From contig NZ_CP127251.1 in the NCBI RefSeq assembly GCF_030285925.1, positions 1,736,001 to 1,800,000 of the forward strand: 64,000 nucleotides of DNA, written 5' to 3'. Positions within the stretch are counted from its first letter, which is position 1, and each line of letters opens with the position of its first letter. The notes below the pieces were generated by a model. That model saw only the letters and a list, made by a program, of their open reading frames with translations, did no database searches and had not been told where the DNA came from. The DNA comes from Devosia sp. YIM 151766 (GTDB lineage: Bacteria > Pseudomonadota > Alphaproteobacteria > Rhizobiales > Devosiaceae). The position numbers and the translations under genes were made by a program. This document shows, in pieces, positions 22,990-41,504 of the stretch.

Positions 22990-24414
22990 ATGAGCGCTGT
23001 CGTCGTCCCCCTCATTCTCGCCGGCGGCCAGGGAACGCGCTTGTGGCCGATGTCACGGACGGCGCGGCCCAAGCAATTCCTGCCGCTGACCGGCCCCGTC
23101 AGCCCGTTCCAGCATACGCTTGAACGGGTGGCCGATGCCCGTTACGCGCCGGCGCTGGTCATCACCAATTCCGAATACCGCTTCATCGTCGGCGAGCAGG
23201 CGGCCGAGCTCGGCATCGGCCTGTCCGGCATCTTACTCGAACCCGTGGCGCGCAACACCGCCATGGCCATCGCCGTCGCTGCCGCCTATATCGCCCGGCA
23301 TTTCGGCCCGGAAACCTTGATGCACGTCCTGCCCTCCGATCAGGACGTGACCGTCGATCAGGGCTATTGGCTGGCCGTGGACCAGGCTGTCGAAGCCGCT
23401 TCCTCCGGCCGGTTCGTGACCTTCGGCATCAGGCCGCTTCGGGTGGAAACCGGCTTCGGCCATATCAAATGCGACGCCGTCATCGGCGGGCTGGCCCGCC
23501 CGGTCGAGCATTTCGTGGAAAAGCCGGATAAGGCACGGGCCGCGCAAATGCTGGAGGAAGGCGGATATTTCTGGAATTCCGGCATGTTCATGCTGCATGC
23601 GGCACATTTCCTCGCCGAGACCGAGCGGCTGGCCCCCGATACGCACCGGGCGGCGCTGGCCTCGGCGCAGGCCGCCCGCGAGGATCTCGACTTCATTCGC
23701 CTTGAGGAAACCGCCTTCGCCACGGCGCCCGACATTTCCGTCGACTACGCCATTTTCGAGAAAACCGCTCGCGCCGCCATGGTGGCCGTGGACTTTTCCT
23801 GGACCGATCTCGGCAATTGGAACGCCGTATGGAAAAGCGGCGAGCGCGACGCTCTCGGCAACGTCACCCGGGGCCGGACCACGCTGCTCGATGTGTCCAA
23901 TTCGCTGATCGTCAGCGACCACGCCCATATTGCCGTCGACGGGCTGGACGATGTGGCGGTGATCGCCACCAATGACGCCGTTTTTGTCGGTCGCCTGTCG
24001 CAGGCCCAGAGGGTGGGCGACATGGTCAAACGCCTGCGCACCGACACGGATGCGGCGACGCTGACGGAAATCCACCCGACCGCCCATCGGCCCTGGGGCG
24101 GTTATTCCTCGATCCTCAATGGCGACCGCTTCCAGGTGAAGCGGCTCTTCGTCAAGCCTGGCAAGAAGCTGAGCCTGCAAAAGCACCATCATCGAGCCGA
24201 GCACTGGATCGTGGTGCGCGGCACGGCGGAAGTTACGGTGGATGGCGCCATCACCGCCCTGACGGAAAACCAGTCCATCTACCTGCCGCTCGGCTGCGCC
24301 CATCGGCTGAGCAATCCGGGCAAGATCGATCTGGAGCTGATTGAAGTGCAGACCGGCTCCTATCTCGGCGAGGATGACATTGTCCGCATCGAAGATGAAT
24401 TCGGCCGCGCCTGA
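22990..24414 (+). CDS. manC: Mannose-1-phosphate guanylyltransferase / mannose-6-phosphate isomerase
   Basis: This 474-residue bifunctional enzyme supplies GDP-mannose. The N-terminal nucleotidyltransferase has LAGGQGTRLWPMSRTARPKQF, MHVLPSDQDV, GHIKCD and FVEKPDKA. The C-terminal cupin isomerase domain (from about residue 350) has HRPWGGYSS, KPGKKLSLQKHHHRAEHW and PLGCAHRL. It feeds gmd and fcl, located 12 kb away in the same locus, for GDP-L-fucose. ATG at 22990 has GGAG ten bases upstream. Spike-like genes follow on the same strand. Confidence 0.95.
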   Translation: MSAVVVPLILAGGQGTRLWPMSRTARPKQFLPLTGPVSPFQHTLERVADARYAPALVITNSEYRFIVGEQAAELGIGLSGILLEPVARNTAMAIAVAAAYIARHFGPETLMHVLPSDQDVTVDQGYWLAVDQAVEAASSGRFVTFGIRPLRVETGFGHIKCDAVIGGLARPVEHFVEKPDKARAAQMLEEGGYFWNSGMFMLHAAHFLAETERLAPDTHRAALASAQAAREDLDFIRLEETAFATAPDISVDYAIFEKTARAAMVAVDFSWTDLGNWNAVWKSGERDALGNVTRGRTTLLDVSNSLIVSDHAHIAVDGLDDVAVIATNDAVFVGRLSQAQRVGDMVKRLRTDTDAATLTEIHPTAHRPWGGYSSILNGDRFQVKRLFVKPGKKLSLQKHHHRAEHWIVVRGTAEVTVDGAITALTENQSIYLPLGCAHRLSNPGKIDLELIEVQTGSYLGEDDIVRIEDEFGRA

Positions 24415-24488
24415 CACACGGCGCCGGCTTATCCCCGCCCGCCCCCGGCGGACGTACCCTCGTGGCTTCGATGACCAAGAGGGCAGCC

Positions 24489-24749
24489 ATGAGCGATTAT
24501 TTCGAAAATACACATAGCGGACTGACATCTCCCGCCTCCCGGGCGATTGCCATCGCGCCTGACGACAATGCCGATCTGAGCCTCACCACCAGGGCCATCT
24601 ATATCGGCGGTGGCGGCGATCTGACGGTCACGATGCGCGATGGCGGGCAAGCGACGTTCACCGGCCTCGCAGCAGGAACGCTGCTGCCGATCCGCGTCCG
24701 CCGCGTCCTCGAAGCAAGCACCGCGACCCAGTTGGTGGGATTGGCCTGA
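24489..24749 (+). CDS. ghsA: Spike base protein, RCAP_Rcc01079 family (gene-transfer-agent head spike)
   Basis: This 86-residue protein begins MSDYFENTHSGLTSPASRA, followed by the acidic AIAPDDNADL and TTRAIYIGGGGDLTVTM. That pattern matches the small spike-base family named after rcc01079 of Rhodobacter capsulatus, part of the head spikes of its gene transfer agent. Start is ATG at 24489; longer frames lack conservation. Its stop overlaps the next ATG by one base. It follows manC by 75 bp. No other phage or GTA structural gene is in the window. Confidence 0.75.
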   Translation: MSDYFENTHSGLTSPASRAIAIAPDDNADLSLTTRAIYIGGGGDLTVTMRDGGQATFTGLAAGTLLPIRVRRVLEASTATQLVGLA

Positions 24750-26485
24750 TGATCGAAATTGGCCTGGGCATCGGCGCCGCTCTGACACCCATCGCGGGCG
24801 GCGATGACCCCTTCAACTTCCGCAAGGCGCTGGCCGGGCGCTATCGCATCGGCCTGTTCGGCACCTCGCTGGCGCAATTGAACATCAGCACCATGCAGAA
24901 ATTCAAGGAGGACGTGCGCGCCAAATGGGGCGATGCCGGCGCGCAATCGCAGCTCTATGGCGGCATCGGCGGCAGCTATGACAATGTGTATCAGGGCTGG
25001 CATCGCCAATATTTCGGCGGCGCGGGCACCATCCGGCTGCGCGGCCGGAGCACGTCGACGCCGATCCGGGAAATCGTCTATGGCGACCAGATCGACCTGT
25101 TCTGGTCCCGCGAAATCGACGCCGAAGGCTTCACCGTCACCATTGACGGGATAAGCCATCCGGTCGGTGAGGGCGGCGCCCAGGCCTATGGCATGCTGGC
25201 GCGCTTTGCGGTCGATCCGGGACCGCACGAATTGATCATCACGCCCCCGGCCAGCGGCTATTGCTATATCGAGCGCCGCCTGTCCCGTCGCGTTGCGGCG
25301 CTGGGCGTCGAAGTCGAGGATTTCACCCTCGGCGGCTCGACGCTGCGCGATGCGGTGACGCTGCGCAGCAAGACCGGCAATCTGGTCGATGGCATTGCCA
25401 TTGCCGGCGACAACGGCATCGACGCGCTGCATGGCATTCCCGAGCTCGATCTGGCCGTCATCACCTATACGGTCAACGATGCCGGCACGCAGGCTTCCGC
25501 TGACGGCTGGGTGCGCCGCGGCGGTTTCGCCACGGCCCTGGCCAAGCTGCTCGACGGTTTTCGCGCCGCCGGCATCCCGGTGATCTATGCCATCGAAATG
25601 GCCGGCCACCACATCATGCCCAACGATGCCGGCAATGCCAATTTCCACACGGCCTATAATCGGCTGAAAGCCGATATTCTGGCGCAGGCCGGCGATGGCG
25701 TCTTCGTGCTGGACTGGGATGGCGCCAACCGCCAGGACGCGGACATTGCCGCCTATGCCGCCGCCTACTATCCGGGCGCCAGCAATCTGAATATCGCGGC
25801 CGGCACCTATTCCGGCGACTTCATCCATCCCAATGCTGCCGGCTACAGGGCATTGGACGATCTACTATCCGCCCAGGCCGGCATGCCGATCCCCCATGAC
25901 AGCAATATCAGCCGGCGGGCGGCGGCGCGCTATCGCTCCTTCCCGCGGGAATTGCGGGGCGACCACACGGTGACCGTCGATGCCGTCGCCAAGAACTTGA
26001 CCGCCATGGCGTCGAGCGCGCAACCGCTGGTCCCAACGCTGATCGAGGGCTCCCGCCTCGCCCCGGTCTTCATCGACGACACGGCGAGCACCATTGTCGG
26101 GGCGACGGCCATTCGCAGCGATATCGCCGCATCGCCCAATGCGGATGCCTTCGGCAAATATGTGGACCTGTCATCCTTTGGCGTCTGGGGCTTCGCCACC
26201 GGGCAAAACTACTGGCTGACCTTCAAGATGAATGGCAATGGCAATATCCGCGCCAATGGCTTCGGCATCAGGATCTGTCTGGATGGCCGGCCCATGCCGT
26301 TCACCGACCCGGCCAATGGCCGAACCAGCATATCCTGGCAGGCCGGCACTGCCGGCATCGATGAGCCGATCCTGGTGGCGGTGCAATTGCAGACCAGTGC
26401 CGAGGGCCAGACGCTAAATCTGAGCGGCAGGGCCTATGACCTCGCCATCACCCGTTCCGACTTCCCGCTCCTGCTGGCCGCCTGA
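24749..26485 (+). CDS. Spike/fibre-like protein with SGNH hydrolase domain
   Basis: This 578-residue protein is coupled to the spike-base gene, as rcc01080 (ghsB) follows rcc01079. Residues about 30-375 look like an SGNH esterase: nucleophile Ser40 in GLFGTSL, Asn243 in TYTVND, and Asp357/His360 in GDFIHPN. A beta-rich insertion lies at about 80-180. The C-terminal part (about 400-578) is rich in short beta segments and could be a receptor- or glycan-binding domain. No signal peptide. It may cleave ester groups on polysaccharide during particle binding, or be a cellular carbohydrate esterase of the EPS locus. Confidence 0.7.
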   Translation: MIEIGLGIGAALTPIAGGDDPFNFRKALAGRYRIGLFGTSLAQLNISTMQKFKEDVRAKWGDAGAQSQLYGGIGGSYDNVYQGWHRQYFGGAGTIRLRGRSTSTPIREIVYGDQIDLFWSREIDAEGFTVTIDGISHPVGEGGAQAYGMLARFAVDPGPHELIITPPASGYCYIERRLSRRVAALGVEVEDFTLGGSTLRDAVTLRSKTGNLVDGIAIAGDNGIDALHGIPELDLAVITYTVNDAGTQASADGWVRRGGFATALAKLLDGFRAAGIPVIYAIEMAGHHIMPNDAGNANFHTAYNRLKADILAQAGDGVFVLDWDGANRQDADIAAYAAAYYPGASNLNIAAGTYSGDFIHPNAAGYRALDDLLSAQAGMPIPHDSNISRRAAARYRSFPRELRGDHTVTVDAVAKNLTAMASSAQPLVPTLIEGSRLAPVFIDDTASTIVGATAIRSDIAASPNADAFGKYVDLSSFGVWGFATGQNYWLTFKMNGNGNIRANGFGIRICLDGRPMPFTDPANGRTSISWQAGTAGIDEPILVAVQLQTSAEGQTLNLSGRAYDLAITRSDFPLLLAA

Positions 26486-26497
26486 ACGCCATCTTCC

Positions 26498-26532: not shown

Positions 26533-27444
26533 CTACAGCTTCAATCCCGAAAGCGCCCGCAAGCGGCTGAGCTTTTCCTCGGCATTATCGCAAGCGGCCA
26601 GGGCTCGCTCGAACTCCATGACCTTGGCGCCGACCAGGAAACGGTACCAATAGCCCTGCAGAAAATGATAGACGAGGCCTTCGCGGCCATCGAGAAATCC
26701 AAGCTGGATGAAATAGCGATGAAGGAAGTATCCCAGCGCCGAAACCGGGAATGGCAGGGGATTATAGACCGCCTCCTTCATCCGGCGCCGGAAGGCCGTC
26801 TGGCGGGACGCATTGCTCTCGGTGATGTCCCTGTCGCGGGCGAATAGTCCATATTTCTGGTTGAGAACGTCGACGGCCTCGCGCGTCGCATATTTATTGT
26901 GCTTGTCGATGAAGAAGCTCAAATCATGCAGGTTGTGATCGGCAAAGCCGCCGGCGAAATGCACCACGCGCCCGTTCTCGACCAGGATATGCTCGTCCAT
27001 CCAGCGCTGCTCGATGCGGCCATGGCCGCGCCTGAACAGCCGCAGCAGGCGCAATGGATGGCGGCCGCCATGCCTGATCCAGCGGCCCATGAAAATATGC
27101 TTGCGGTCGATAGTGACGCCCGCCACATCGGCGGGCAGAAAGGGTAATTCGCTCCCAATACGCGCCGCCAGATCGGCCTCGACGATCTCGTCGGCGTCCA
27201 GCCGTAAAATCCATTCGGCGGTGATCGGCGCATTGTCCATGCCCCATTGGAATTGCCTGGCATAATTGATCCAGGGATTGGTCAGGACCTGCGCTCCCGC
27301 CGCTTGCGCCAGTTCCACCGTGCGGTCCGTCGAGCCGGAATCGATGACGAATACCTCCGTCGCGAACCCCGCTGCCGAGGCGATTGCCCGGGCGATGTGA
27401 CGCTCCTCGTCCTGGGCGAGGATGAGCACCGCCAGGCCGGTCAT
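26533..27444 (-). CDS. Family 2 glycosyltransferase (WaaE/KdtX-like)
   Basis: This 303-residue inverting GT-A transferase has VLILAQDEERHIARAI, FVIDSGSTDRT and the metal-binding RLDADEI (DAD at 83-85). RHGGRHPLRLLRLFRRG and YNPLPFPVSALGYFLHRY match the LPS-core WaaE-like branch. It probably adds a hexose to the lipid-linked repeat unit on the cytoplasmic face. It is the last gene of the ten-gene operon; its ATG overlaps the acetyltransferase stop by 4 bp. Confidence 0.88.
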   Translation of the reverse strand: MTGLAVLILAQDEERHIARAIASAAGFATEVFVIDSGSTDRTVELAQAAGAQVLTNPWINYARQFQWGMDNAPITAEWILRLDADEIVEADLAARIGSELPFLPADVAGVTIDRKHIFMGRWIRHGGRHPLRLLRLFRRGHGRIEQRWMDEHILVENGRVVHFAGGFADHNLHDLSFFIDKHNKYATREAVDVLNQKYGLFARDRDITESNASRQTAFRRRMKEAVYNPLPFPVSALGYFLHRYFIQLGFLDGREGLVYHFLQGYWYRFLVGAKVMEFERALAACDNAEEKLSRLRALSGLKL

Positions 27445-28025
27445 GCCCCCGCCCCGGCCAGGCGGCGAGGCCGCAGGGGCCTGGCCGGATTGCCGGCATA
27501 GATCATCCCCGGCTCCAGATTTGTAAACGCCACCCCGCGCGCGCCCAGCACCGCGCCATTGCCGATTTCCACGCCCGGCCCCACAAAGGCCTCCGCCGCC
27601 ACCCAGGCGCCCTCTCCGATCACGATGGGCTTGGCGACCAGCTGGAAATGCGCGTCGTCCACATCGTGGCTGCCGCAGCAGAGATGCGCGCCCTGCGAAA
27701 CCAAAGCCCGCTCGCCGACGACGATTGCCGCCATATTGTAGCAGTTGACCCGCGGTCCCAGCGTCGCATGGGCGTGCATCGTCAGATTGGGCGGATACCA
27801 GATGCGGGCGCTGCCATAGACATTGGCGGTCGCGTGAACGCGGGCCCCGCAGGCGCGCAGCACCATGATCCGCCATGTCCGCATCGGCGCGGGCGTCCAG
27901 CGCGCCAGCACCAGCCAGGCGGTCGCCCAGGCGAGCCGCTTGAGCCGGTGCGCCAGGGTAAAGCTGGCTCCACCGAACACGGCGCCATGCCGCCCGGCCT
28001 GCAGAATATCGCGGTCGCCATTCAT
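27441..28025 (-). CDS. Putative colanic-acid-type acetyltransferase (WcaF-like)
   Basis: This 194-residue left-handed beta-helix acyltransferase resembles WcaF. Signatures are SARIWYPPNLTMHAHATLGP, CCGSHDVDD (catalytic His region), PIVIGEGAWVAAEAFVGPGV and YAGNPARPL. It would O-acetylate a sugar of the repeat unit using acetyl-CoA. The SGNH protein encoded just past the operon end could act in the opposite sense. Both ends overlap neighbouring operon genes by 4 bp. Confidence 0.85.
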   Translation of the reverse strand: MNGDRDILQAGRHGAVFGGASFTLAHRLKRLAWATAWLVLARWTPAPMRTWRIMVLRACGARVHATANVYGSARIWYPPNLTMHAHATLGPRVNCYNMAAIVVGERALVSQGAHLCCGSHDVDDAHFQLVAKPIVIGEGAWVAAEAFVGPGVEIGNGAVLGARGVAFTNLEPGMIYAGNPARPLRPRRLAGAGA

Positions 28026-29176
28026 CGCGCTGCTTCCTCCAAATGCATCAGCAGGTCAGCGGCCGCGCGCTCCGCCGAGAAATGGGTCTCGAATGCGGTC
28101 CTGGCGGCCAGGCGCATTCCCGCGCGCTGCGCTTCAGGCAGATCGAGATATGCGGCGAGCAACGCCCGCACGCCCGCCAGACTATCGGCCCGCACCAGCC
28201 CCGCTCCGGCCCGTTCCACTATGCGCCAGATATTGACTTTATCGGTGATCAATACCGGGCAGGAACAGGACAGGGCCTCCGCCACCGCAATTGCGAAATT
28301 TTCCTGGTGGGACGGCAGGATAAAGACTTCGGCGCCGCGAAACGCCCCCCATTTGGCCGCGCCGGTCAACATGCCGGGCCAATGCACCCGCGGCGCAATA
28401 CCGGCCCGTTCCGCCAGTCCCGCCAGCCTGGCCTTCAACCCGGCCTGATCGGGGCCGGCGATCACCAGATCGAGATGCGGATGCGTTCGGGCTGTTCCGG
28501 CAAACGCCTCAATCAGCAGATCGCACCCCTTTTTGGGGTGAAGCCTGCCGAGAAACAGGAGATATCGCCTCCCTGCCAGCGCCGGCAGGACGGCGCCAAA
28601 CGCCGCCCGCTGCTCGGCGTCCCCAGCCGGCGGCTGGCCTGACCCGAAAGCAACGGTTTCTTCCCGATAGCCGTGCCCGACAAAGCTATGACGCGCGCGC
28701 CGCATCTCCGTTTCCGTGGTGAACAGCACCGCCCGCGCCTCGCGCAGCACCCTGCCCTGCCACAATGTCCAGAATGCCTGCTTGGCCAGATGCTTCAGCG
28801 GATAGGTCTGCCGGAACCACGGGTCCATCATGCCATGGGCAAAGACCAGATAGGGCAGGCCCGACCGGCGCAGTCCCTGCCCGCCGCCGACCGAGGCATG
28901 GTTCCACAAGCCATGCACCACGGCGACATCGAAGCGGGCGGCATGGCGCGCCACCCATTTGGCCAATGCCGGCGTATAGCCATATCGCTTCACCCACCGC
29001 CCCACCCCATGGACCTGATGCGGCCAATGGCGCAGGAACGCCGCCTCCGGCGCATCGAGCGTCACGATCTCGGTCCCATGTCCCCATTCGGCCATGAGAT
29101 CGGCGGCGAGCCGCAGCCCTTCTATAGGGCCTCCGGTGCGCGGGTCTGCCGACGCGATGATGTGCAGGATCCTCAT
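28022..29176 (-). CDS. Family 4 glycosyltransferase
   Basis: This 384-residue retaining GT-B transferase has N-terminal HIIASADPRTGGPIEGLRLA and VVHGLWNHASVGG, and C-terminal LFLGRLHPKKGCDLLIEAF and LPSHQENFAIAVAEALSC with the EX7E-type acidic pair. It likely transfers one sugar of the exopolysaccharide repeat. It overlaps the acetyltransferase and the next GT by 4 bp each. Confidence 0.88.
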   Translation of the reverse strand: MRILHIIASADPRTGGPIEGLRLAADLMAEWGHGTEIVTLDAPEAAFLRHWPHQVHGVGRWVKRYGYTPALAKWVARHAARFDVAVVHGLWNHASVGGGQGLRRSGLPYLVFAHGMMDPWFRQTYPLKHLAKQAFWTLWQGRVLREARAVLFTTETEMRRARHSFVGHGYREETVAFGSGQPPAGDAEQRAAFGAVLPALAGRRYLLFLGRLHPKKGCDLLIEAFAGTARTHPHLDLVIAGPDQAGLKARLAGLAERAGIAPRVHWPGMLTGAAKWGAFRGAEVFILPSHQENFAIAVAEALSCSCPVLITDKVNIWRIVERAGAGLVRADSLAGVRALLAAYLDLPEAQRAGMRLAARTAFETHFSAERAAADLLMHLEEAAR

Positions 29177-30330
29177 TGCAGCAGCCCGCTATAGAGCTGG
29201 AACATCCGCTCGCCATATTGATCCCAGCCGCCAAGCGCGCCGACCCGCGCCCGCGCCCGATACCCCATGGCCGCGCGCTCCGCGGGATTGTCCGCCATCC
29301 AGGCGATTGCCGCCGCGATGGCCTCGGGGCTGCGGATCGGAACCACCAGCCCCTCGGCGCCATGTGCGACATGCTCGCGCGCGCCGGTATTTTCGGACAG
29401 GATGACCGGGCAGCCACAGGCCATGGCTTCGGCCACCACCAGCCCGAACCCATCCTCGATGCTGGGCAGGACCAGAACATGGGACCGGGACATGACATGG
29501 CGCAGCCTGTCATGATCCACCCGCCCCATGACCCGGACATTACCAGCCCGCAGCCGGCGGCCCAGCCGCTGCCGCACCGCCGGCTCCATGCTGCCGATCA
29601 GCGTCAGCGTCACGGCGCGGGACGCGAGCAGGTCGAGCGCGTCGAACAGATCGAAGGCCCCCTTGCGCACCGAAAGATCGCCGACGAACAAGAGATCGAA
29701 CGTCCCGGAGCCGGGCCGGCCTTCCATCCTGAACCGCGTGAGATCGACCCCATAAGGCACCACCGCCACCCGTCCCGCATCCACACCCGCTTCGACGAAA
29801 CTCCGTTTCGCCAATCCCGAGGGCACTACGATCAGGTCGGCCAGCTCATATTCAGTCAGTTCGCGCTCATGGGTCGTTGGCGCATAATAGCTATTTTCCA
29901 GGCCGACGCGCTCATATTCTTCCCGGAGCAGGCGATGCTGCCAGCCGATATGCGTACAGCCGCGATCCAGCACATATCTGGCCCCGTGCCGCTGTGCCGC
30001 CGGCCCGCTCCACAGACCAAGCCCCTCTTGCGCCACGAAAATATCCGTGTCCGGCAAGCGCCGGGAGACCAAGGCATCCTGCAAGAGCGCCGAAGCGCGA
30101 TGCATATGCTGCATATCGCGCGGGCCGGGCTGTATCGCAGCGGGATATCGCAGCATCATCAGCGGCCGCAGCACGGGCAAGGTCGTCACCCGGTCGCGCG
30201 GCACATTCTCTCGCTTCAGGCTGCCCCAATTGAAGCCGGAATAGATGCGGCCAAGGCTGTTCCTTTTCAGCATCTGCCGCGCCAAAGCGAACATATGGGC
30301 GCGGCCATGGGCCGATATCGTAACCTTCAC
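29173..30330 (-). CDS. Family 4 glycosyltransferase
   Basis: This 385-residue GT-B protein shows LLFVGDLSVRKGAFDLFDAL, RVMGRVDHDRL and LPSIEDGFGLVVAEAMACG in the C-terminal donor-binding half. The N-terminal half (KVTISAHGRAHMFALARQM, FVAQEGLGLWSG, VLDRGCTHIGWQ) resembles GTs acting in surface-polysaccharide operons. Start is GTG at 30330, in a GTGA overlap with the upstream stop. Donor and acceptor cannot be assigned. Confidence 0.87.
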   Translation of the reverse strand: MKVTISAHGRAHMFALARQMLKRNSLGRIYSGFNWGSLKRENVPRDRVTTLPVLRPLMMLRYPAAIQPGPRDMQHMHRASALLQDALVSRRLPDTDIFVAQEGLGLWSGPAAQRHGARYVLDRGCTHIGWQHRLLREEYERVGLENSYYAPTTHERELTEYELADLIVVPSGLAKRSFVEAGVDAGRVAVVPYGVDLTRFRMEGRPGSGTFDLLFVGDLSVRKGAFDLFDALDLLASRAVTLTLIGSMEPAVRQRLGRRLRAGNVRVMGRVDHDRLRHVMSRSHVLVLPSIEDGFGLVVAEAMACGCPVILSENTGAREHVAHGAEGLVVPIRSPEAIAAAIAWMADNPAERAAMGYRARARVGALGGWDQYGERMFQLYSGLLQ

Positions 30331-31319
30331 GTTACGCCTCCATCGAGGCCGGCAAGCCGCGCCAATTGCCGATAGGCCGCTGCAAAGGTGCAATCCGCCA
30401 CATGCGCCTCCGCCAGCAGCCGCAAATGTTCCGCCGGCTCCAGCGCCTTCGCCATGGCATGGGCCAATGAGCCCACCTCCCCCGCCCTGAACAGCAGCGC
30501 CGCCGGGCCGCCGGCCTCCTTCAAGCCTCCCCTGTCGGAGACCACCACCCGGCACCCCGCCGCCAGTCCCTCCACCGCGACCTTGCCGAACGGCTCCTCA
30601 TAGCGCGACGGCACCACCAGCACTTTGTGCCGATTCAGCAGAGCATTGCATTCCGCCTGCGATTTGGCGCCGGCAAAGCTGATCCGCGCCTGCAATCCCA
30701 GCTTGCCGGCCAGGCACTCGTATCCCGCCTGGCCCGAGCCGCGCCCCACAATGGTCAGCCGGGAATGCGGGAAGCGCTGCATGGCCTCGATCAGCGTCTG
30801 GATGCCTTTCTCTGGCTCCAGCCGGCCGACAAAGATGAAATCCGCCGCCCTGCTGCTCCATGCGATCTCCCGCCGAAACACCTGTTCGTCATAGCCGGGA
30901 AAGATCACCGCCGCGCAGCCCGGTATCTTGCCGCGGACGAATTCGCTATTGGCGATCCTGAATCCTGCCGCCTCGATCCGCCGCAACAGCCAGCCGGACA
31001 ATATTCCGCCACCGCCCCGGACATGGCTGGCATACCAGATCGTGAACGGCTTTCTCGTCACCAGGACCGGCCAGTTGAGACGCACCGATGGATGCCGGGC
31101 GATGACCCGGTCCGCCCAGCGGAACAGCGATAGCAGGCGCAACGGATTTGGGCCTCGCACCATCGCCACGCCGTCGTTGCGCTCCACCGCGCTCGCCGTC
31201 TGGGTGATCACGATCACCTCGTGCCCATCGGCGGCGGCGCGCCGCGCAATGTTCTCGGCCGTCACCTCCAATCCGCCGATGGCGGGCCAATAGGCATGGC
31301 TGGAGATCAGCACTTTCAT
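30327..31319 (-). CDS. Family 4 glycosyltransferase
   Basis: This 330-residue GT-B transferase begins MKVLISSHAYWPAIGGLEVTA with the glycine-rich acceptor loop. It has FIFVGRLEPEKGIQTLIEAM, LTIVGRGSG and VVPSRYEEPFGKVAVEGLAAG. It likely adds a sugar to the lipid-linked intermediate. The ATG overlaps the flippase stop by 4 bp. Confidence 0.88.
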   Translation of the reverse strand: MKVLISSHAYWPAIGGLEVTAENIARRAAADGHEVIVITQTASAVERNDGVAMVRGPNPLRLLSLFRWADRVIARHPSVRLNWPVLVTRKPFTIWYASHVRGGGGILSGWLLRRIEAAGFRIANSEFVRGKIPGCAAVIFPGYDEQVFRREIAWSSRAADFIFVGRLEPEKGIQTLIEAMQRFPHSRLTIVGRGSGQAGYECLAGKLGLQARISFAGAKSQAECNALLNRHKVLVVPSRYEEPFGKVAVEGLAAGCRVVVSDRGGLKEAGGPAALLFRAGEVGSLAHAMAKALEPAEHLRLLAEAHVADCTFAAAYRQLARLAGLDGGVT

Positions 31320-32614
31320 GGCCAGCCTCCGGCCGCCCGGGGCATCAGGGCGCCGCGCCGATGAGCGGCGATCAGTTCGGCGCCGGCGGCGGCCAGCCGC
31401 CCCAGGGTCAGCGACAAAGTCAGGGTCAGCGCCCCGGCAATGGTGCCGATATCGACGACGAGGGCAATCAGCACGCAAGTACCCAGCCCCACCGGGATTT
31501 GCAGCCAGCTATAGCCGGTCCAGCCTCGATGAGCGACCAGGCGCCACGCCGTCAGCGAACCGCGATTGGCCAGCGCCACCGCCGCCGCCACCAGAATTTC
31601 GAAGTCCAGGCCGGCATAATTCGGCCCGACCAGCGCCAGCAAAATCCATGGCGCCAGATAGGCCACGCCCAGCAGCAGCAATGCCGGCGCCATGGTGAGC
31701 ATGACCAGGGCCCAGTATTTTCTCAGCAGGTTCCGGGTCGCCTGCGCGAAAATCGGTACGCAAAAGGCATAGGTGAAAGCATCGACGGGCAACAGCAATT
31801 GCTGGATACGGCCGATCGCCCCCAACCCGGCCACATCGCTGACGCCGGCGAACAGCGACAGCGCGACGATAACGATCTGCGCCTGGAACACATGATAGAG
31901 ATCGACGGGCAATTGCTGGCGAACCGCAAGCCGGACCTCGCGCCGATCCTCCTCGCGCCATCCCCGCTCCCGCCCGATGATCTGGCGCGACCAATTGACC
32001 ATTGGCCCCACCTTGAGCAGCGCCACCAGCACGCTGAGGCCCACTGCCCAGTAAATGTCCAGCATTCCCAAGGCGTGGAGCGCCAATACCGCCAGAATTC
32101 TCAGCGCCGCCAAGCCGATTTCGACCGCTTGGACCCGGCTCGTCCGCCGGGCAAAATAGAGCACTTGTTCAGCAAGGCGGCCATGCAGGTCGGCCCACCA
32201 GAACATCAGCAGGAAAACGCAGAGGCAAATGGCCGTCTCCAGCGCCGCGCCATTATGCAGGAGCAGCGCGAACGCCGCGCCGAGCACCGGGGGCAGCATG
32301 ATCGGTGCCAGCCGGCGGCGCATGCGCATGACCGCTTCCTGCGCCTCGGCGGCGCGATCCATAGCGGGCCAGGTCCGGCCCAATATGGCGGTAAAGCTCA
32401 ACTGCGCGCCGCCACTGGTCAGGATAATGATCGCGCCCATGAGCGTGGTGACGATCGTGTAGAGCCCGTAATCGGCAATCGAGGTCCAATGGGCGATCAT
32501 CAGCCCCGCCAGGGCGGTGAGGCCCTGGGCAATGGTGCTGGCGACGAGAAAGGTGCTGGCCCGCCGGATCGGCAATCGCTGAAGATAGCGCAGCGGGGCC
32601 AGGTCGCGGGTCAT
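31316..32614 (-). CDS. Wzx-like polysaccharide flippase
   Basis: This 432-residue integral membrane protein has about twelve hydrophobic segments. It starts RRASTFLVASTIAQGLTALAG and includes DYGLYTIVTTLMGA, typical of the MATE/MOP polysaccharide exporter superfamily. It would flip the undecaprenyl-linked repeat unit to the periplasm for the adjacent Wzy-like polymerase. The ATG is in a 4-bp overlap with the polymerase stop. Confidence 0.8.
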   Translation of the reverse strand: MTRDLAPLRYLQRLPIRRASTFLVASTIAQGLTALAGLMIAHWTSIADYGLYTIVTTLMGAIIILTSGGAQLSFTAILGRTWPAMDRAAEAQEAVMRMRRRLAPIMLPPVLGAAFALLLHNGAALETAICLCVFLLMFWWADLHGRLAEQVLYFARRTSRVQAVEIGLAALRILAVLALHALGMLDIYWAVGLSVLVALLKVGPMVNWSRQIIGRERGWREEDRREVRLAVRQQLPVDLYHVFQAQIVIVALSLFAGVSDVAGLGAIGRIQQLLLPVDAFTYAFCVPIFAQATRNLLRKYWALVMLTMAPALLLLGVAYLAPWILLALVGPNYAGLDFEILVAAAVALANRGSLTAWRLVAHRGWTGYSWLQIPVGLGTCVLIALVVDIGTIAGALTLTLSLTLGRLAAAGAELIAAHRRGALMPRAAGGWP

Positions 32615-33999
32615 GGCGATCCCGCCCTGCCCATGCGCGGCCCGGTTGGCCGGGAAAATGCAGCCGGCGCCTCCCGCGCCATGTCCGGCAAGCTTTGCCG
32701 CGCCAGCGCCAGAGTGAGGCCGCCGGCCAGCCAGGGCAAGGTCGCCATGCCATTATTGCCGGTCACTTGCGCGATCAGGATGAGGGGAGCGGCAAAGCCC
32801 GCCATGACCATGGCCGCGCTGTTCCCCGCCAGCGCCCCATTGGCCGCTTTCAGCAATATTGCCGCGACGATCAGCATGCGCAGGCCGATAAAGGTCACCC
32901 CGAAGACCGGGCCCAGTTCGAGCACCATGCGCGGCCATTCCCCTTCCGCCAGGAGGAACATCCGCTCGCCTGCCGCCAGGAACGAGCCGGCATTGGAGCC
33001 GGTGCCGATGCCGAGACCCCACATATCGGCCCGCTCGAATTGCGCCGTCACCCCCGTCAGGATGGTCCAGATCCGCTCGAAGACGGAGCCTTCGCTGCTG
33101 CCGGCCATGGTCTGGCGCTGCGCCATGGTTTCATAGGCATCGGGAAACACCGCGACGAAGACCACGAAGAAGGCGGCGATCAGTCCGAACAGCGCTATTA
33201 TCCCGCCGAAGCGCCCGGTTCTCTGCCCCACGATGAGCGAGCCGATCATGGCGAAAACCACGATGATGGCGGCCGATACGAAATATGACCGGGCGCCGCT
33301 CAGCGCCCCCATGACCAGCACCGCCATCCCGCCCGCCACAAGTAATATCCGGGGCGCCTGGATGAAATTGCGCCCCAGCGCCGTCAGCAGCAGCGTGGCC
33401 AGCGCAAAGCTCGCGAAAGTGGCCTGCGCCTGCGCGAAGGTGAATGGGCCATAGGGGCGCACGACGCCGGAAACCACCGTGAAGCGGCCCTCAAGATCGT
33501 CGCCCAGCCCCTTGTTGATCGGCGCATCCACCGGCGAATGAAACTGCACCATGACCAGAATGCCCACCGGCACCGCCAGCCAGAGGCAAAGCCGCAGCAG
33601 CCGCGCGATGTCTTCCGGGTTGAAGGTTTCCGGAATGATGAACAGCAGCGGCACGAATAACAGGTAGAAGCGCATCCCGATCAAGCTGACCAGCACATTC
33701 ACGCCCGTGCTCAATTGCAACAATGCCAGGAGCAGCAAGGCCAGCGCGGCGATGCAATACCAGAATGACAGCACCGAGAATTTCACCCCCCGATAGCCGA
33801 CATAATGGATGATCGCGGCGATCATCAGCGGATCGCGCAGGAACAGCAGCGGCTGCTCGAACGAGCCGAAGGCCCATTTGCGCAAGACGCCCTCCAGCAG
33901 CACGAGAACGAATATCCACTGCACCAGCCTGACGATGATCCGGCGCGCCCGCTCGTCCGGCGGCGGGGCGATGGCGGTGTCGGCGCTATTTTGCTCCAT
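32611..33999 (-). CDS. Wzy-like polymerase / O-antigen ligase family membrane protein
   Basis: This 462-residue protein has about ten to twelve hydrophobic segments and a large periplasmic loop (about residues 290-380) containing MAGSSEGSVFERIW and ADMWGLGIGTGSNAG. The topology and VRPYGPFTFAQAQATFASF fit Wzy/WaaL-type enzymes. Placed beside Wzx, polymerisation of flipped repeat units is the likely job. Start is taken as ATG 33999, 14 bp inside the upstream GT gene; an earlier ATG at 34071 is less likely. Confidence 0.78.
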   Translation of the reverse strand: MEQNSADTAIAPPPDERARRIIVRLVQWIFVLVLLEGVLRKWAFGSFEQPLLFLRDPLMIAAIIHYVGYRGVKFSVLSFWYCIAALALLLLALLQLSTGVNVLVSLIGMRFYLLFVPLLFIIPETFNPEDIARLLRLCLWLAVPVGILVMVQFHSPVDAPINKGLGDDLEGRFTVVSGVVRPYGPFTFAQAQATFASFALATLLLTALGRNFIQAPRILLVAGGMAVLVMGALSGARSYFVSAAIIVVFAMIGSLIVGQRTGRFGGIIALFGLIAAFFVVFVAVFPDAYETMAQRQTMAGSSEGSVFERIWTILTGVTAQFERADMWGLGIGTGSNAGSFLAAGERMFLLAEGEWPRMVLELGPVFGVTFIGLRMLIVAAILLKAANGALAGNSAAMVMAGFAAPLILIAQVTGNNGMATLPWLAGGLTLALARQSLPDMAREAPAAFSRPTGPRMGRAGSP

Positions 34000-35257
34000 A
34001 GCTGCCAATTCCGCCTCCGGCCGATTGCCGCCGATCTTCACAAAGCAGTCCAAGCTGCCGCTCGAAGCCATTCAGAATGGCTGCTTTTCCCCAGCGCTCC
34101 TGTGCCCTGTTTCGCGCCGCCGCTCCCAGTTTCTCGCAGAGTTCCGCATCGTCCAGCAGGCGGCTGATACCGGCAACAAAACCGTCAATGTCGCCCGGCA
34201 TGGTGCAAAGACCGCAATGCTCCATTTCGGTGGCGAGCCCCGTTCCCGGCGCCGCCGTCGCGATGACCGGCCGTCCCGATGCCAGCATATTGGCCAGCTT
34301 GGACGGCAGCATCAGGTCCGCCGCGCCGGCGATTTGCGGCAAGAGATGGATGCTCGCCAATCCGAGAAGGGCGCCCAATCGCTCTTTGGGCTGCAGATCG
34401 CGGAACTGGATATTGGTCAGGCCCGCCGCCCGCGCTTCGAGATTGGCCCGGTTCGGTCCCTCCCCGCAAACCACGAAAGTCAGGTCCGTCCGCTCTCTCA
34501 ACCGGCGGGCCACCTCCACGATGATCTCGGTACCCTGCTTATTGGCGATATTGCCCGAATAAAGCGCGACATGGGGCGTGGTGATGCCCCATTCCGCCCG
34601 ATAGTCCGACCCGTCCGGTCCCGGCTGCACCGCGTCGAGATCGGCCCAATTGCGGAACTCGACGATCCGGTCCGCGCATACGCCTTTTTCCGCCAGCCTG
34701 CGGCCCATGAAGGGAGAAATCGTGCTGACGATATCGAACCTGTTCAGCACCGCCCGCTCGAAAAACCGCGCCAGCCGCGCGCCCGGCCCGCCATCCCTGA
34801 GCAGACCAGTGGCGAAGGCGGCTTCGGTTTCGAAATCCTGAATATGGAGCCAGCTTTTCGCGCCGCACGGGCCAGCGGCCAGGCGCGCGACCGGCGCGGC
34901 GATCAGCGAGGGTGCCACGCTCATGACCACATCCGGCCGCCAGAACCAGGCCCGCATCAGCATGGGGAACAAGGCCGCCAGCCCGAAACTGCAATGATGC
35001 AGCAGCCGCCTGCCCCCGGATGGCCCGGCCGGGATGTAATGAGGCACGCGGGTGACATCGACGCCGTTCTCGGAACCGCGCGCATAGGTGAAGGCACTAT
35101 GGCCCGCCATGATCTTCCAGCCCGGATAATAGGGACACGCCGCCACCACCTGCACCTCATGGCCATTGCCGGCCAGCGCCTCGGCCATGCCGGTGGTATA
35201 GACGGCGATGCCGATCGGTTCGGGCGCGTAATTGAGGCCCAGGATCAGCAGCTTCAC
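33986..35257 (-). CDS. WcaI-like family 4 glycosyltransferase
   Basis: This 423-residue GT-B protein begins [20 protein letters not shown], the hallmark of WcaI (colanic acid fucosyltransferase-like) proteins. Other WcaI features are ACPYYPGWKI, SWLHIQDFETEAAF and QIAGAADLMLPSKLANMLAS. With gmd and fcl directly upstream, a fucosyltransferase role is plausible but inferred. Start is GTG at 35257 in a GTGA overlap with fcl. Confidence 0.87.
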   Translation of the reverse strand: MKLLILGLNYAPEPIGIAVYTTGMAEALAGNGHEVQVVAACPYYPGWKIMAGHSAFTYARGSENGVDVTRVPHYIPAGPSGGRRLLHHCSFGLAALFPMLMRAWFWRPDVVMSVAPSLIAAPVARLAAGPCGAKSWLHIQDFETEAAFATGLLRDGGPGARLARFFERAVLNRFDIVSTISPFMGRRLAEKGVCADRIVEFRNWADLDAVQPGPDGSDYRAEWGITTPHVALYSGNIANKQGTEIIVEVARRLRERTDLTFVVCGEGPNRANLEARAAGLTNIQFRDLQPKERLGALLGLASIHLLPQIAGAADLMLPSKLANMLASGRPVIATAAPGTGLATEMEHCGLCTMPGDIDGFVAGISRLLDDAELCEKLGAAARNRAQERWGKAAILNGFERQLGLLCEDRRQSAGGGIGSYGAK

Positions 35258-36201
35258 GCCGCTCTGTCCTGCGCAACATGCTGCACGAACCAGGCATAGA
35301 CATCGCGAATGCCCTCCTCCAATCCGATGCGCGGCCTCCAGCCCATGCCCCTGAGCGTGTCGGCGCTCATCAGTTTGCCCGGCGCGCCGTCCGGCTTGCT
35401 CAGGTCGTGCACGATGTCGCCGCCGAACCCGACCACGTCGCCGACCAGCCGCGCCAGATCGAGGATCGGGATGTCCCGGCCCGACCCCACATTGACCGGC
35501 TCCGCGCCCGAATAGGTCTTGAGCAGGAACACCAGCGCGTCGGCGCAATCGTCGGCATGCAGGAATTCACGGCGCGGGGTGCCGGTCCCCCATATGGTCA
35601 GGCTGGATTCCCCGTTCATCCTGGCCTCATGGGCCTTGCGGATCAGCGCCGGCAGCACATGGCTCGACGCCAGATCGAAATTGTCACCCCGCCCATAGAG
35701 ATTGGCCGGCATGGCGGAAATATAGTCCCGCCCATGCTGCCGGCGATATGCCTCGGCCAGCTTGATGCCGGCGATCTTGGCCAGGGCGTACCATTCATTG
35801 GTCGGCTCCAGCGGCCCGGTCAGCAGCGCGGTTTCGTCAATCGGCTGCGATGCGGATTTTGGATAGATGCAGCTCGAGCCCAGGAACAGCAGCCGCTCCA
35901 CGTCATGGCGATGCGCCGCCTCGATGACATTGGCCTCGATGATCAGATTGTCATAGAGAAAATCCGCCGGGTATCTCTCATTGGCCCATATCCCGCCGAC
36001 CCGGGCCGCCGCCATGATGATGGCGTCGGGCCTGGCATGATCCACGAAAGCCTCGACCTCCGCCTGCCGCTTCAGGTCGACCACCTCGCGGCCGGCGCTG
36101 ATGATCGCGCAATCCTCCGAGGCCAGCCGGCGCACCAATGCGCTGCCGACCATGCCGCGATGGCCGGCGACCCAGACGCGCTTGCCCGCTAGATCGTACA
36201 T
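35254..36201 (-). CDS. fcl: GDP-L-fucose synthase
   Basis: This 315-residue SDR epimerase/reductase converts GDP-4-keto-6-deoxymannose to GDP-L-fucose with NADPH. It has [33 protein letters not shown], the catalytic YALAK and [10 protein letters not shown]. It overlaps gmd by 13 bp and the WcaI-like gene by 4 bp. Confidence 0.95.
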
Positions 36202-37253
36202 TCCGCCTCCTCCACCATGCTGTCATTCGCCATGATGCGCAGGTCCTCGCGCACCATTTCGGCGGCCAGTTCGCGAACACCGGTCTTGTGGCTCCAGCCC
36301 AGTTTCTGCCGCGCCTTGCTCGGGTCGCCCAGCAGCATATCCACCTCGGTCGGCCGGAAATAGCGCGGGTCCACCGCGACCAGGCAGCGTCCCGTCGCCG
36401 CGTCGTGGCCCTGCTCCTCCAGGCCGCTGCCACGCCATTCAATGGCCATGCCGATATCGGCGAAGGCCCATTGCACGAAGTCGCGCACCGCGCTCGTCAC
36501 GCCGGTGGCCAGCACGTAATCGCCGGGCTCGTCCTGTTGCAGCATGCGCCACATGCCCTCGACATATTCGCGCGCATGGCCCCAGTCGCGCCTGGCGTCG
36601 AGATTGCCCAGATAGAGCTTGTCCTGCCGGCCCAGATGGATCGCCGCCACCGCCCGGGTGATCTTGCGGGTAACGAAAGTTTCGCCGCGCACCGGGCTTT
36701 CATGGTTGAACAGGATGGCGTTGGAGCCGTGCATGCCATGGGCTTCGCGGTAATTCACCACGATCCAATAGGCGTATAGCTTGGCTACCCCATAAGGCGA
36801 GCGCGGATAGAACGGCGTGGTCTCGCTTTGCGGCACTTCCTGCGCCAGCCCGAAAAGCTCCGAGGTCGAGGCCTGGCAGAACCGCACCCGCTCGGTCATG
36901 CCGAGAATGCGGATGGCCTCCAGCAGGCGCAAGGTGCCGATGCCATCGGCATTGGCGGTATATTCGGGCGTCTCGAAGCTGACCCGCACATGGCTTTGCG
37001 CCGCCAGGTTATAGATTTCGTCCGGCTGGGTTTCCTGCATGATGCGGACCAGATTGGTCGCGTCGGTAAGGTCGCCATAATGCAGGATGAGCCGCGGATT
37101 TTGCCGGAGATGCTCGATACGGCCGGTATTGACCGATGACGACCGCCGCTTGATGCCGTGGACGACATATCCCTTGTCCAGCAAAAGCTGCGCCAGATAG
37201 GCGCCATCCTGCCCGGTAATACCGGTGATAAGGGCGGTCCTTGGCCTATTCAT
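36189..37253 (-). CDS. gmd: GDP-mannose 4,6-dehydratase
   Basis: This 354-residue NADP-dependent SDR makes GDP-4-keto-6-deoxymannose from GDP-mannose. Motifs: [38 protein letters not shown], catalytic [21 protein letters not shown] and [14 protein letters not shown]. It is the first gene of the ten-gene minus-strand EPS operon; GGAG precedes the ATG at 37253. Its promoter must lie in the 258-bp gap shared with the divergent BY-kinase gene. Confidence 0.96.
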
Positions 37254-37335
37254 GCCTGCTCCAAGCCATATGACGGGCAATGACAAGAGTAATGGAGAGC
37301 GAACACTATTTTTGGCCGGCCCGGCAATAGATAAA

Positions 37336-37484
37336 TTCCGCCTCTGCCGCCCGGGGGCGCCGAAGACTGTCAAAACCCGCACCTGGTGGCGAGAAAAACC
37401 TGCCGTCTCTTGCATCCGCCTCGGAAACCGGCAAGTCTGGAGCGGATCGAGCGATAAAAACTTTCCGCCCCGGCGGAAATTTTT
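37336..37484 (+). promoter_or_regulatory. Possible transcription attenuator in the BY-kinase leader
   Basis: TTTCCGCC (37462-37469) and GGCGGAAA (37472-37479) form a compact hairpin followed by TTTTT, a good intrinsic terminator. It lies only 27 bp before the ATG at 37512. No plus-strand gene lies upstream for it to end, since gmd is divergent. An earlier TTCCGCC at 37336-37342 duplicates the left arm and could pair with the right arm instead, a possible antiterminator. The role is inferred. Confidence 0.5.
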
Positions 37485-37511: not shown

Positions 37512-39182
37512 ATGGATGCCGAGATCGACCTTCGGGCGGTTTTCAGTTTTCTCCGGCGCCAGTTCTGGCTGGTGCTGGCGATCTTTCTGGCAATTATCGG
37601 CCTGGCTGGCCTATACCTGCTCACCCTGACTCCGATCTACACCGCCACCACCCTGGTCATGGTCGATCCCAGCAGCAGGAACCTGCTTCTCGACCAGCCG
37701 CAGACCGGCGCCAGTTCGGCTATCGACGCCCGTGTCGAAGGCGAGGTGCTGCTGGCCAAGTCGGACAATGTATTGCTGGCGGTCATCGATCGCGAAAATC
37801 TCGGCGCCAACAGCGAGTTTCAGGCTGGCCCGGGCTTTGCCGACCGCCTGCTGTCATTCCTTGGTTTGCGCGCGCCGCTATCCTCGACCCCCGACGATGC
37901 CCTGCGGCAAATCCTGGCCAAGCTGGATTCCAGAATCAGCGTACAGCGGCATCGCGCCACCTTCCTCATCTCGATTTCCGCGAGTTCGGAGGACCCCGAC
38001 CTGGCGGCCAGATTGGCCAATGCCATGGCCAGCGCCTATATCGGCAGTCAATTGAGCGCCAAGGTGCAGGGCGCATTGGCGGCCCGCGACGTGGTGATAC
38101 GGCAATTGGATGCGGCGCGCCAAAGCCTGATGGAGAATGACGGCTTTTCCCAGCGCCCGGTCGAGGAGGCACCCGAAACGCCGACCGAACTCTACGACAT
38201 GCGGCAGCGCGGCGATCTGGCGCGTCGGCAATATGAACAATTGCTGGCCCTGTCCCAGCAATTGCAGGCGGAAGCCAGTCTTCAACTGGCCGATAGCCGG
38301 GTGGTTTCGGCGGCGCTGCGTCCCGATCTGCCGAGCTTCCCCAATGCCCGCAACATGCTGGCCCTGGCCGCCCTGATCGGCCTCGTGCTCGGCATTTTCC
38401 TGGCCTTCCTTTACGAGCATTTCATCGGCGGCGTCACCTCGGACGATCAATTGGCCGCCATTGCCAGGACCCGGTCGGCCCTGGTCGTGCCGCGCGTCAA
38501 GCTCCTGCCCGATCAGCACAGCGTCGCCGAAGCGCTTATTGCCGCGCCCTTATCCGCCTATGCCGAGGCAGTGCGGCGGGTTCGGACCAGCATCGACCAC
38601 AGCCTGGCCATGGCCTCGAAATCCGAACCGGACCGGGCCCCGATCATCATGGTGACCTCGGCGGCGTTCGCGGAGGGCAGAACCACCCTGGCGCTGTCCA
38701 TTGCCCGCTCCTATGCGCTGGCCGGGCGCGCGGCCCTGCTGATCGATTGCGATTTCCGGCGTCCCTCCATCCATCGTCAACTCGGCGTCGGCGCCTCCGA
38801 CGGTCTGTTCAATGCGCTCAGATCCGGCGAAATGCTGGACAATTTCCGCACCGCCGCCACCGAGGACAAGCAGACCGGCCTGCTGACGCTGATCGGCTCG
38901 CAGTCCAGCGACGTCGCCACCGACCAATTGGTCACCAGCCGCAATTTCGAGCGGCTGCTGGCCGCCGCCGCCTCGGCCTTCGAGATCGTCGTCCTCGATA
39001 CCCCGCCGCTGGGCCACGTGGTCGATGGCAGCTATATCGCGCGCCAGGCCGATGCGGTGGTCATGGTGGTGCAATGGGCCACTACCCCGCAACAGGACGT
39101 GCGCAAGGCCCTGTTGTCGCTGGAGCCCGCATTGCGCGGCAGCGTGCCGCTCATCCCGGTTCTCAACCAGCAAAAGCTGTGA
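37512..39182 (+). CDS. Wzz/Wzc-like polysaccharide co-polymerase with degenerate BY-kinase domain
   Basis: This 556-residue inner-membrane protein has a Wzz chain-length domain between two membrane segments (about 18-38 and 282-302), then a cytoplasmic BY-kinase-like domain. The Walker A loop reads AEGRTT, with Arg390 where the nucleotide-binding Lys is expected. Walker A' LIDCDFRRPS and Walker B IVVLDTPP are intact. The protein ends PVLNQQKL with no tyrosine-rich tail. It is shorter than Wzc/ExoP (about 720-790). It probably controls EPS chain length and export without normal autophosphorylation. Confidence 0.87.
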   Translation: MDAEIDLRAVFSFLRRQFWLVLAIFLAIIGLAGLYLLTLTPIYTATTLVMVDPSSRNLLLDQPQTGASSAIDARVEGEVLLAKSDNVLLAVIDRENLGANSEFQAGPGFADRLLSFLGLRAPLSSTPDDALRQILAKLDSRISVQRHRATFLISISASSEDPDLAARLANAMASAYIGSQLSAKVQGALAARDVVIRQLDAARQSLMENDGFSQRPVEEAPETPTELYDMRQRGDLARRQYEQLLALSQQLQAEASLQLADSRVVSAALRPDLPSFPNARNMLALAALIGLVLGIFLAFLYEHFIGGVTSDDQLAAIARTRSALVVPRVKLLPDQHSVAEALIAAPLSAYAEAVRRVRTSIDHSLAMASKSEPDRAPIIMVTSAAFAEGRTTLALSIARSYALAGRAALLIDCDFRRPSIHRQLGVGASDGLFNALRSGEMLDNFRTAATEDKQTGLLTLIGSQSSDVATDQLVTSRNFERLLAAAASAFEIVVLDTPPLGHVVDGSYIARQADAVVMVVQWATTPQQDVRKALLSLEPALRGSVPLIPVLNQQKL

Positions 39183-39209
39183 CGGCCCCGCGACCTGCCG
39201 CCTTGCCGC

Positions 39210-39962
39210 TCAACTGCCGGTGCCGGTGGAAAGCTCCCGCCACAGGGTCAGCGCCAGGATTCTGCAATCCAGACATAGGCTCCAGTTCTGGATATAGGCC
39301 AGATCGTGATGGATCCGCGCCAGCGCCAGCTGCGGCTCGGTCGTCGGGCCGCGCAGGCCGTTGACCTGTGCCCAGCCGGTGAGCCCCGGCCTGACCCGGT
39401 GCCGATCATCGTAATAGGGCGCCAAATCCCTATAGGGCATGCCCGCCGCCAGCATACCGGGCACATGGGGGCGCGGCCCGATCAGCGACATGTCCCCGAA
39501 CAGCACATTGATCAATTGCGGCATCTCATCCAGGCTGGTCCGGCGCATGAACCGCCCGAGCCGGGTGATGCGCGGATCGCCGCCGACCGCCTGCCGGAGC
39601 CCGGACTGGTCGCCCAGCTCGGTCCGCATCGAGCGGAATTTATAGACGCCGAACAGCTTGCCATCGAGGCCCTCCCGCTGCTGGCGGAAGAATACCGGCC
39701 CCGGACTGGTGCGCTTGATCAGGATCGCCAGAACGAGAAAAAGCGGCGAAAGCAGTATTAGGCCGGCCAGCGCCAGCACGACATCGATCGTCCTCTTGGA
39801 AATGGAATTCCTGCGCCAGCGGACGCCCGGCGCCGCCATGTCCGACAATCGGAGCGGCAGCCCGCTCTGGCTTAGATGAAGCTCGTGCTGCTGGCGGCCG
39901 GCAAAAACAGATGGGTCACGCGCCGCAGCCGTGACAGGCCATGCTTGGTCGTACAGTGTCAT
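39210..39962 (-). CDS. Initiating sugar transferase (WcaJ/ExoY-type polyprenyl-phosphate phosphotransferase)
   Basis: This 250-residue bacterial sugar transferase places the first hexose-1-phosphate on undecaprenyl phosphate. It has a single hydrophobic segment (VVLALAGLILLSPLFLVLAI) and catalytic motifs KFRSMRTE, RRTSLDEMPQL, GDMSLIGPRPHVPGM and RPGLTGWAQVNGLRG. It is a short ExoY-like form without the extra N-terminal membrane helices of WcaJ. The gene converges with the BY-kinase gene. Confidence 0.92.
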   Translation of the reverse strand: MTLYDQAWPVTAAARDPSVFAGRQQHELHLSQSGLPLRLSDMAAPGVRWRRNSISKRTIDVVLALAGLILLSPLFLVLAILIKRTSPGPVFFRQQREGLDGKLFGVYKFRSMRTELGDQSGLRQAVGGDPRITRLGRFMRRTSLDEMPQLINVLFGDMSLIGPRPHVPGMLAAGMPYRDLAPYYDDRHRVRPGLTGWAQVNGLRGPTTEPQLALARIHHDLAYIQNWSLCLDCRILALTLWRELSTGTGS

Positions 39963-41497: not shown

Positions 41498-41504
41498 GTC
41501 TCGC

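Follow-up and report, generated by a model that had tools for sequence, protein, structure and literature searches.

A candidate gene-transfer-agent head-spike pair within an exopolysaccharide locus of Devosia sp. YIM 151766

Two overlapping genes of Devosia sp. YIM 151766, lying within an exopolysaccharide (EPS) locus, quite probably encode the head spike of the bacterium's own RcGTA-type gene transfer agent (GTA), with a GTA-type promoter of their own and a fibre that would bind and deacetylate the cell coat. The window, by which we mean the whole 64,000-nucleotide stretch analysed, covers positions 1,736,001-1,800,000 of a genome of 3.29 Mb in a single contig. The features are as follows, in window coordinates.

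22990..24414, + strand: manC, mannose-1-phosphate guanylyltransferase / mannose-6-phosphate isomerase (TIGR01479, E 7.1e-180; Pfam)
24429..24460, + strand: candidate GTA-type promoter element TTATCCCCG (24429-24437) with a -10-like TACCCT (24455-24460)
24489..24749, + strand: ghsA-like head-spike base, 86 aa (NF048002, phrog_12296, PDB 6tb9_E3)
24749-26485, + strand: fibre gene, 578 aa (ORF)
24749..24802, + strand: docking-like peptide of the fibre, residues 1-18 (MIEIGLGIGAALTPIAGG)
24803..26485, + strand: putative SGNH-esterase body of the fibre, residues 19-578 (Ser40, Asn243, Asp357, His360)
26533..37415, - strand: ten-ORF polysaccharide operon (family matches)
27441..28025, - strand: WcaF-like EPS O-acetyltransferase (NF007797, E 1.7e-47)
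37512..41557: Wzz/Wzc-like (+), WcaJ-type sugar transferase (-) and phosphomannomutase-like (-) genes

The gene pair and its polysaccharide neighbourhood

The 86-aa frame had been likened by an earlier note to the RCAP_Rcc01079 spike-base family, and three matches bear this out. NCBIfam NF048002, whose cut-off is 28 bits, covers the frame at full length (residues 3-86, profile positions 1-85 of 85) with 101.5 bits and E 2.3e-29. PHROG 12296, "tail fiber protein", matches with E 9e-23, and Rcc01079 of the solved RcGTA structure (PDB 6tb9_E3) with E 1.3e-8. The match to GhsA, by NF048002 and by PDB Rcc01079, is direct, and the spike base above the NF048002 cut-off is present in a single copy in this genome. 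A start/stop overlap, TGATG, joins the 86-aa and 578-aa ORFs at 24489-26485, as first described. For GhsB the correspondence holds in part: the position of the second gene, its docking-like N-terminus and the fibres of relatives, which match Rcc01080, argue for it, and the 578-aa body has no PDB match; the protein gave no PDB, NCBIfam or PHROG match at E 1. The fibre may work in the manner of GhsB with a body that has no sequence homology to Rcc01080.

The N-terminus of the fibre reads IEIGLGIGA as compared to IALGLGLGL in residues 2-10 of Rcc01080, an alternation of Ile/Leu with Gly. Residues 1-18 have pLDDT <50 in the predicted structure, homology with a prophage tail spike starts at residue 19, and docking-like N-termini were found in 35 of 48 family fibres vs. 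23 of 511 control ORFs. Pfam PF13472 matches residues 173-368 above its cut-off (E 2.3e-9). Across 11 aligned sequences Asn243 and Asp357 never vary, and Ser40 and His360 hardly do, His360 being absent from the row P0002. The SGNH residues named earlier (Ser40, Asn243, Asp357, His360) are upheld by this match and this conservation, and the 578-aa fibre would have both the predicted SGNH fold and the Ser/Asn/Asp/His residues of a carbohydrate esterase.

The pair lies between manC, directly upstream, and ten overlapping ORFs on the minus strand (26533-37415), just where the earlier note had put it. Members of this operon with family matches are a GT2, the WcaF-like acetyltransferase, GT4s, a WcaI-type GT, an fcl-like gene and gmd. 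The flippase- and polymerase-like frames (31316, 32611), which had no Pfam or NCBIfam match, are named from size and context alone. The WcaF-like ORF scores 161 bits against NF007797, under the model cut-off of 192; it may be the enzyme that makes the fibre's substrate. A search with 22 GTA/prophage queries (E 1e-5) detected neither GTA nor phage structural genes up to 10 kb from the pair, in agreement with the first reading that no phage gene is nearby.

A purely cellular, particle-free pair of polysaccharide esterases that tailors or turns over EPS was the alternative offered at the outset. The EPS locus, the adjoining acetyltransferase and the predicted SGNH fold of the body, which is nearest to cellular O-acetylesterases, would all suit such a role. 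Against it stand the spike-base partner, the docking-like N-terminus, the GTA-type promoter element and the occurrence of the same body on a prophage tail spike; residues 1-18 show by eye no charge pattern of a signal peptide, and in many relatives the same slot is taken by a GhsB-type body without SGNH motifs. We consider this alternative very improbable.

Spike bases beside EPS genes in relatives

We surveyed a genome group referred to here as the family, which we take, from its named contigs, to be Devosiaceae. Of its 136 genomes, 76 have the spike base, as do 47 of 297 genomes of an order sample, 12 of the 47 being family members. Sixty loci (61 with our own) were fetched from the 76 spike-positive genomes, chosen for their distance from contig ends; each spans 20 kb, or less where a contig ends sooner. 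Of 35 genomes from other families that carry a spike base, 19 supplied 20 places. Gene calls were ORF-based and annotation-free. The 511 control ORFs and 485 control upstream regions were drawn from 38 of the family's 61 loci, operon-internal genes among them.

With 14 window proteins as queries (E 1e-6), a search that misses unlike loci, at least one EPS-type gene was found in 55 of 60 family loci and at least two kinds in 50 of 60. EPS-type genes were found in 1 of 20 control stretches, taken at arbitrary places in the same genomes, and in 2 of 20 other-family loci. Among named Devosia and Pelagibacterium contigs, mostly the same genomes as in the family set, 14 of 16 have EPS-type genes. 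The linkage of spike genes with polysaccharide genes is firm, and the co-occurrence that the earlier note had proposed to survey is borne out.

The 22 GTA/phage queries gave matches near the spike base in none of the 60 family loci and in 11 of 20 other-family loci, one of these (L139) by a tail-fibre N-terminus alone. Five of the 20 other-family loci, which belong to two families, have the spike base at the end of a GTA cluster, behind the tail genes to g15 and a DUF2793 tail fibre; in the family surveyed here the gene instead sits separately, in the EPS locus.

Other arrangements were observed farther afield. In three of four Robiginitomaculum contigs a DUF2793 fibre, a spike base and a fibre adjoin, and two of those three have EPS-type genes at most 10 kb away. 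Twenty Rhizobium/Neorhizobium contigs with a spike base (L231-L237, L240, L244, L246, L247, L251, L253, L256, L263, L264, L270, L275, L276, L278) gave an EPS match in 3, a GTA/phage match in 0 and an adjacent fibre in 3. In a contig of the Firmicute Paenibacillus algorifonticola (L291), a fibre-like ORF of 196 aa lies next to a relative of the spike base.

The GTA cluster and the shared promoter element

A GTA cluster lies at 770-787 kb of the same genome (locus 770-789 kb), with terS-terL-portal-protease-MCP-g6..g15 in what we take to be the RcGTA gene order, used for naming, and with RcGTA sizes. PHROG matches support the three genes tested, TerL, MCP and g15; the other genes are named from order and size. 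The MCP matches PDB Rcc01687 with E 1e-84, and a 343-aa DUF2793 tail fibre is encoded apart from the cluster, at 3.23 Mb. Judged by order and size, the genome that has the pair also appears to have a complete GTA cluster.

In relatives the two do not always go together. GTA MCP at ≥64% identity is absent from 14 of 76 spike-positive family genomes, 12 of which have terL or a piece of it, and the spike base is absent from 37 of 99 MCP-positive genomes, a class that includes genomes with the gene matched in pieces. The association of spike base and MCP is weak (Fisher p 0.012, phylogeny ignored). In seven MCP-negative relatives that were fetched the GTA cluster is cut by large deletions, and five of the seven keep an intact-looking fibre; in one further genome, which has an 87% MCP, the spike base is interrupted by a stop. 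The pair kept in genomes with a deleted cluster reflects either recent losses or an additional use by phages.

The deletions themselves have a recurrent form. In the clusters L201-L205, terS and a TerL cut short at ~145 residues are joined directly to the C-terminal portion of g15, the TerL match ending at residue 145-146 in four and at 136 in L204. L202 retains most of g15 and L204 a portal piece. The open frames are 706-1325 aa in four and 189 aa in L204.

Relatives that retain the pair after GTA deletion, and the one with a broken base, would fit a relic, that is, a former GTA spike now out of use. The cluster of our genome, complete in order and size, and the conserved promoter element argue against this reading, as does a dN/dS of about 0.19 between two copies of the fibre body, a value that bears on one copy at least and not necessarily on both. 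It is the explanation to which we give least credence.

The element TTATCCCCG sits in the 74-bp gap between manC and the spike base and is also found upstream of GTA terS, and the tail fibre is preceded by TTATCCCCA, so that in this genome TTATCCCC stands before terS, the tail fibre and the spike pair. In the family, 41 of 61 loci have TTRTCCCC no more than 150 bp from the spike base, at a median distance of 61 bp (quartiles 60-63), and one has it on the opposite strand, as compared to 1 of 485 control upstream regions; the element precedes the spike base in 7 of 20 other-family loci. Among the seven relatives with a deleted cluster the element precedes terS in three and was unseen in four. 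These data suggest a promoter element common to the GTA cluster and the spike pair, though not exclusive to the GTA. Exclusive use was ruled out by 24 same-genus genomes, in which TTATCCCC(A/G)-N12-20-TANNNT occurs at 227 places vs. 62 for the backwards control (0-20 per genome).

The own-genome composite TTATCCCCR-N12-20-TANNNT is not enriched in the 3.29 Mb, with five places vs. four for the backwards control. The five include one before terS and one before the spike pair; the tail-fibre site is missed. Another site, at 638,701 (-), is upstream of a gene for a hypothetical protein of ~150 aa whose start resembles that of a secreted protein. The 227 vs. 62 places hint at a regulon wider than the GTA.

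CtrA half-sites have been reported before the spike genes of R. capsulatus. Here TTAA-N7-TTAA was found before the spike genes in 0 of 61 family loci, and TTAAC/GTTAA in 4 of 61 vs. 44 of 485 control upstream regions; control of the pair by CtrA was ruled out for want of half-site enrichment. TTATCCCC is presumably DnaA-box-like, and because the motif of GafA, the RcGTA activator, is DnaA-like, a GafA-like activator may by analogy act at the element. The DnaA-like DNA-binding motif of GafA, and its action together with CtrA on head-spike and tail-fibre genes, have been reported (PMC9638019).

Fibre bodies, proposed mechanism and comparison with known systems

A fibre was accepted when an ATG lay within 40 nt of the spike base and the frame had at least 150 aa; 48 of 60 family loci have one by this rule, with a start/stop overlap in 42, and the 12 that failed are out of all fibre counts. 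The 57 fibres (48 family, 8 other-family and our own) fall into 12 sequence groups of 25, 15, 7 and 2 members and eight singletons, one of which is our 578-aa fibre. A profile of 12 fibres from the largest group matches Rcc01080 with E 9e-15, and by this measure the largest group are GhsB homologues within an EPS locus. Of ten fibres scanned, two have a GDSL domain of their own. The body of our fibre was found in no other of the 136 family genomes searched (E 1e-6) and had no relatives in phage records (E 1e-3); ten relatives were found among the best 7998 candidates of a large protein set.

One of these ten is in the same genome. A second copy of the body, 73% identical over residues 19-578, terminates a DUF2793 tail spike of 901 aa encoded at 2.746 Mb, the last gene of a phage structural module that includes g12-g15-like genes. 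The two copies differ with dN 0.17 and dS 0.89 (dN/dS ~0.19), an estimate that shows selection on at least one of them. The spike genes are ~1 Mb from this prophage (L009) and were ruled out as part of it.

The tail spike lies in a ~50-kb integrated element (2,708,688-2,759,215; L294, L199, L009, L012) flanked by a 43-bp perfect repeat, the right copy of which is inside tRNA-Met(cat). Its order is a 418-aa ORF with the look, by eye, of a tyrosine integrase, then a polysaccharide cluster (two UDP-sugar dehydrogenases, an epimerase, a flippase and three GT4), then the phage module ending in the body-sharing tail spike. The element seems to be a prophage that carries coat genes and a coat-directed spike.

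Such sharing raises the question of whether the pair decorates the capsids of a resident or past prophage, with the EPS locus a parking place for receptor-binding genes. Spike bases occur in 82 phage records, 72 of them Flavobacterium phages, and beside phage head and packaging genes in other families; the SGNH body is also on the tail spike of the resident prophage, and the pair persists where GTA clusters are deleted. Yet the GTA-type promoter element stands at a nearly fixed distance from the spike base, the spike base ends GTA clusters in two families, its commonest partners are GhsB homologues, and the 22 GTA/phage queries had zero matches near the 60 family loci. We regard a phage-capsid role as unlikely, and prefer a spike on the GTA.

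The earlier note had proposed that the spike and its receptor evolve together, and this part of the proposal fared less evenly than the linkage. A WcaF-like acetyltransferase is present in 14 of 15 loci with an SGNH body vs. 3 of 34 others (Fisher 1.4e-8, relatedness ignored); the SGNH label is a motif reading, by which L098 and L109, members of an SGNH group without the block-I motif and both with the acetyltransferase, were counted as non-SGNH. The SGNH trait changed 8 times on an MCP tree of 43 rows, a quick tree in which 12 of the 40 internal branches had good support, long branches drew warnings and one row was 41% filled. Among five independent pairs on supported branches, SGNH body and acetyltransferase went the same way in 2.9, the opposite way in 0 and without difference in 2.1, which falls short of significance because the pairs are too few. 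In the 38 loci with both fibre and MCP, similarity of fibre and EPS genes with MCP distance removed gave a partial Mantel r of 0.092, reached by 85 of 2000 permutations, and strong coevolution was dropped as an explanation. On these results we hold the linkage as firm, a functional matching of fibre body and EPS as likely, and their coevolution as suggestive.

On the preferred reading, a pentamer of the spike base on the capsid vertices would grip the fibre by its first ~10 residues, and the SGNH body (19-578) outside the particle would bind EPS made by the surrounding genes. It would strip O-acetyl groups, for example those added by the neighbouring WcaF-like enzyme, and the particle would thereby attach to, or pass, the coat of its kin. 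The pair would be fired from its own GTA-type promoter. Base and docking peptide would stay constant in the family while bodies are exchanged, and in our genome the usual GhsB-type body would have been replaced by one shared with a prophage tail spike. The spike base, a GTA cluster complete in order and size, the promoter element and the EPS linkage together support the original idea that the spike module is kept beside the genes that build its receptor.

More tentatively, the locus could be a portable lock-and-key island under a GTA-type promoter, in which receptor genes and the matching enzyme are inherited or replaced as a linked unit and new keys come from prophage tail spikes, which meet the same coat. 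This is a speculation to which we give rather less than even weight. RcGTA is reported to carry fragments of ~4.5 kb (PMC9690577). The distance from spike base to acetyltransferase is 3.5 kb (24489-28025), and because this is shorter than such a fragment, one GTA particle could hand a recipient the key and part of the lock.

These findings touch two open questions, the reason for the scatter of RcGTA genes and the way in which GTAs pick their recipients. If the spike is kept with receptor genes and its bodies are swapped, transfer by the GTA would favour recipients that share the coat, and particle targeting and coat may change together. The locus further yields a head spike that may act as an enzyme, and the family a possible promoter element of its GTA; within one cell, a GTA and a prophage would use a common receptor-binding body. 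We found no report of a spike pair in the EPS locus of Devosia in the open-licence literature, and as far as that literature goes the family-wide EPS seat, the promoter element, the exchange of bodies including an esterase, and the sharing of a body with a prophage are new.

The closest known system is GhsA/GhsB of RcGTA (Rcc01079/Rcc01080), whose genes in Rhodobacter capsulatus adjoin the capsule genes rcc01081-01086 (PMC10218006) and match Rhodobacter phages (PMC8601537). The Devosia pair shares with it the base family, the two-gene order, the docking-like N-terminus of the fibre and a place beside polysaccharide genes apart from the GTA cluster. It differs in belonging to another bacterial order and in its fibre, which has 578 aa as compared to 325 in Rcc01080 and an SGNH body that lacks a sequence match to Rcc01080 and is shared with a prophage tail spike. 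Neither the capsule genes beside the Rhodobacter spike nor the sharing of the body with a prophage figured in the earlier note. The SGNH protein gp63.1 of phage G7C (PDB 4qnl) is a tail fibre on the baseplate, whereas the Devosia fibre is predicted to sit on a capsid spike base through a short peptide. The peptidoglycan O-acetylesterase Ape1 (8gkd, 8gld, 4k3u) is cellular and 10-14% identical to the fibre, which has an extra C-terminal part outside the Ape1 matches. TspA, the RcGTA tailspike, is similar in being a GTA-borne enzyme against matrix polysaccharide encoded apart from the cluster, and is reported to be missing outside Rhodobacterales in megatron-bearing species (PMC13420450). TspA is a tailspike, whereas the Devosia fibre would occupy the head-spike slot.
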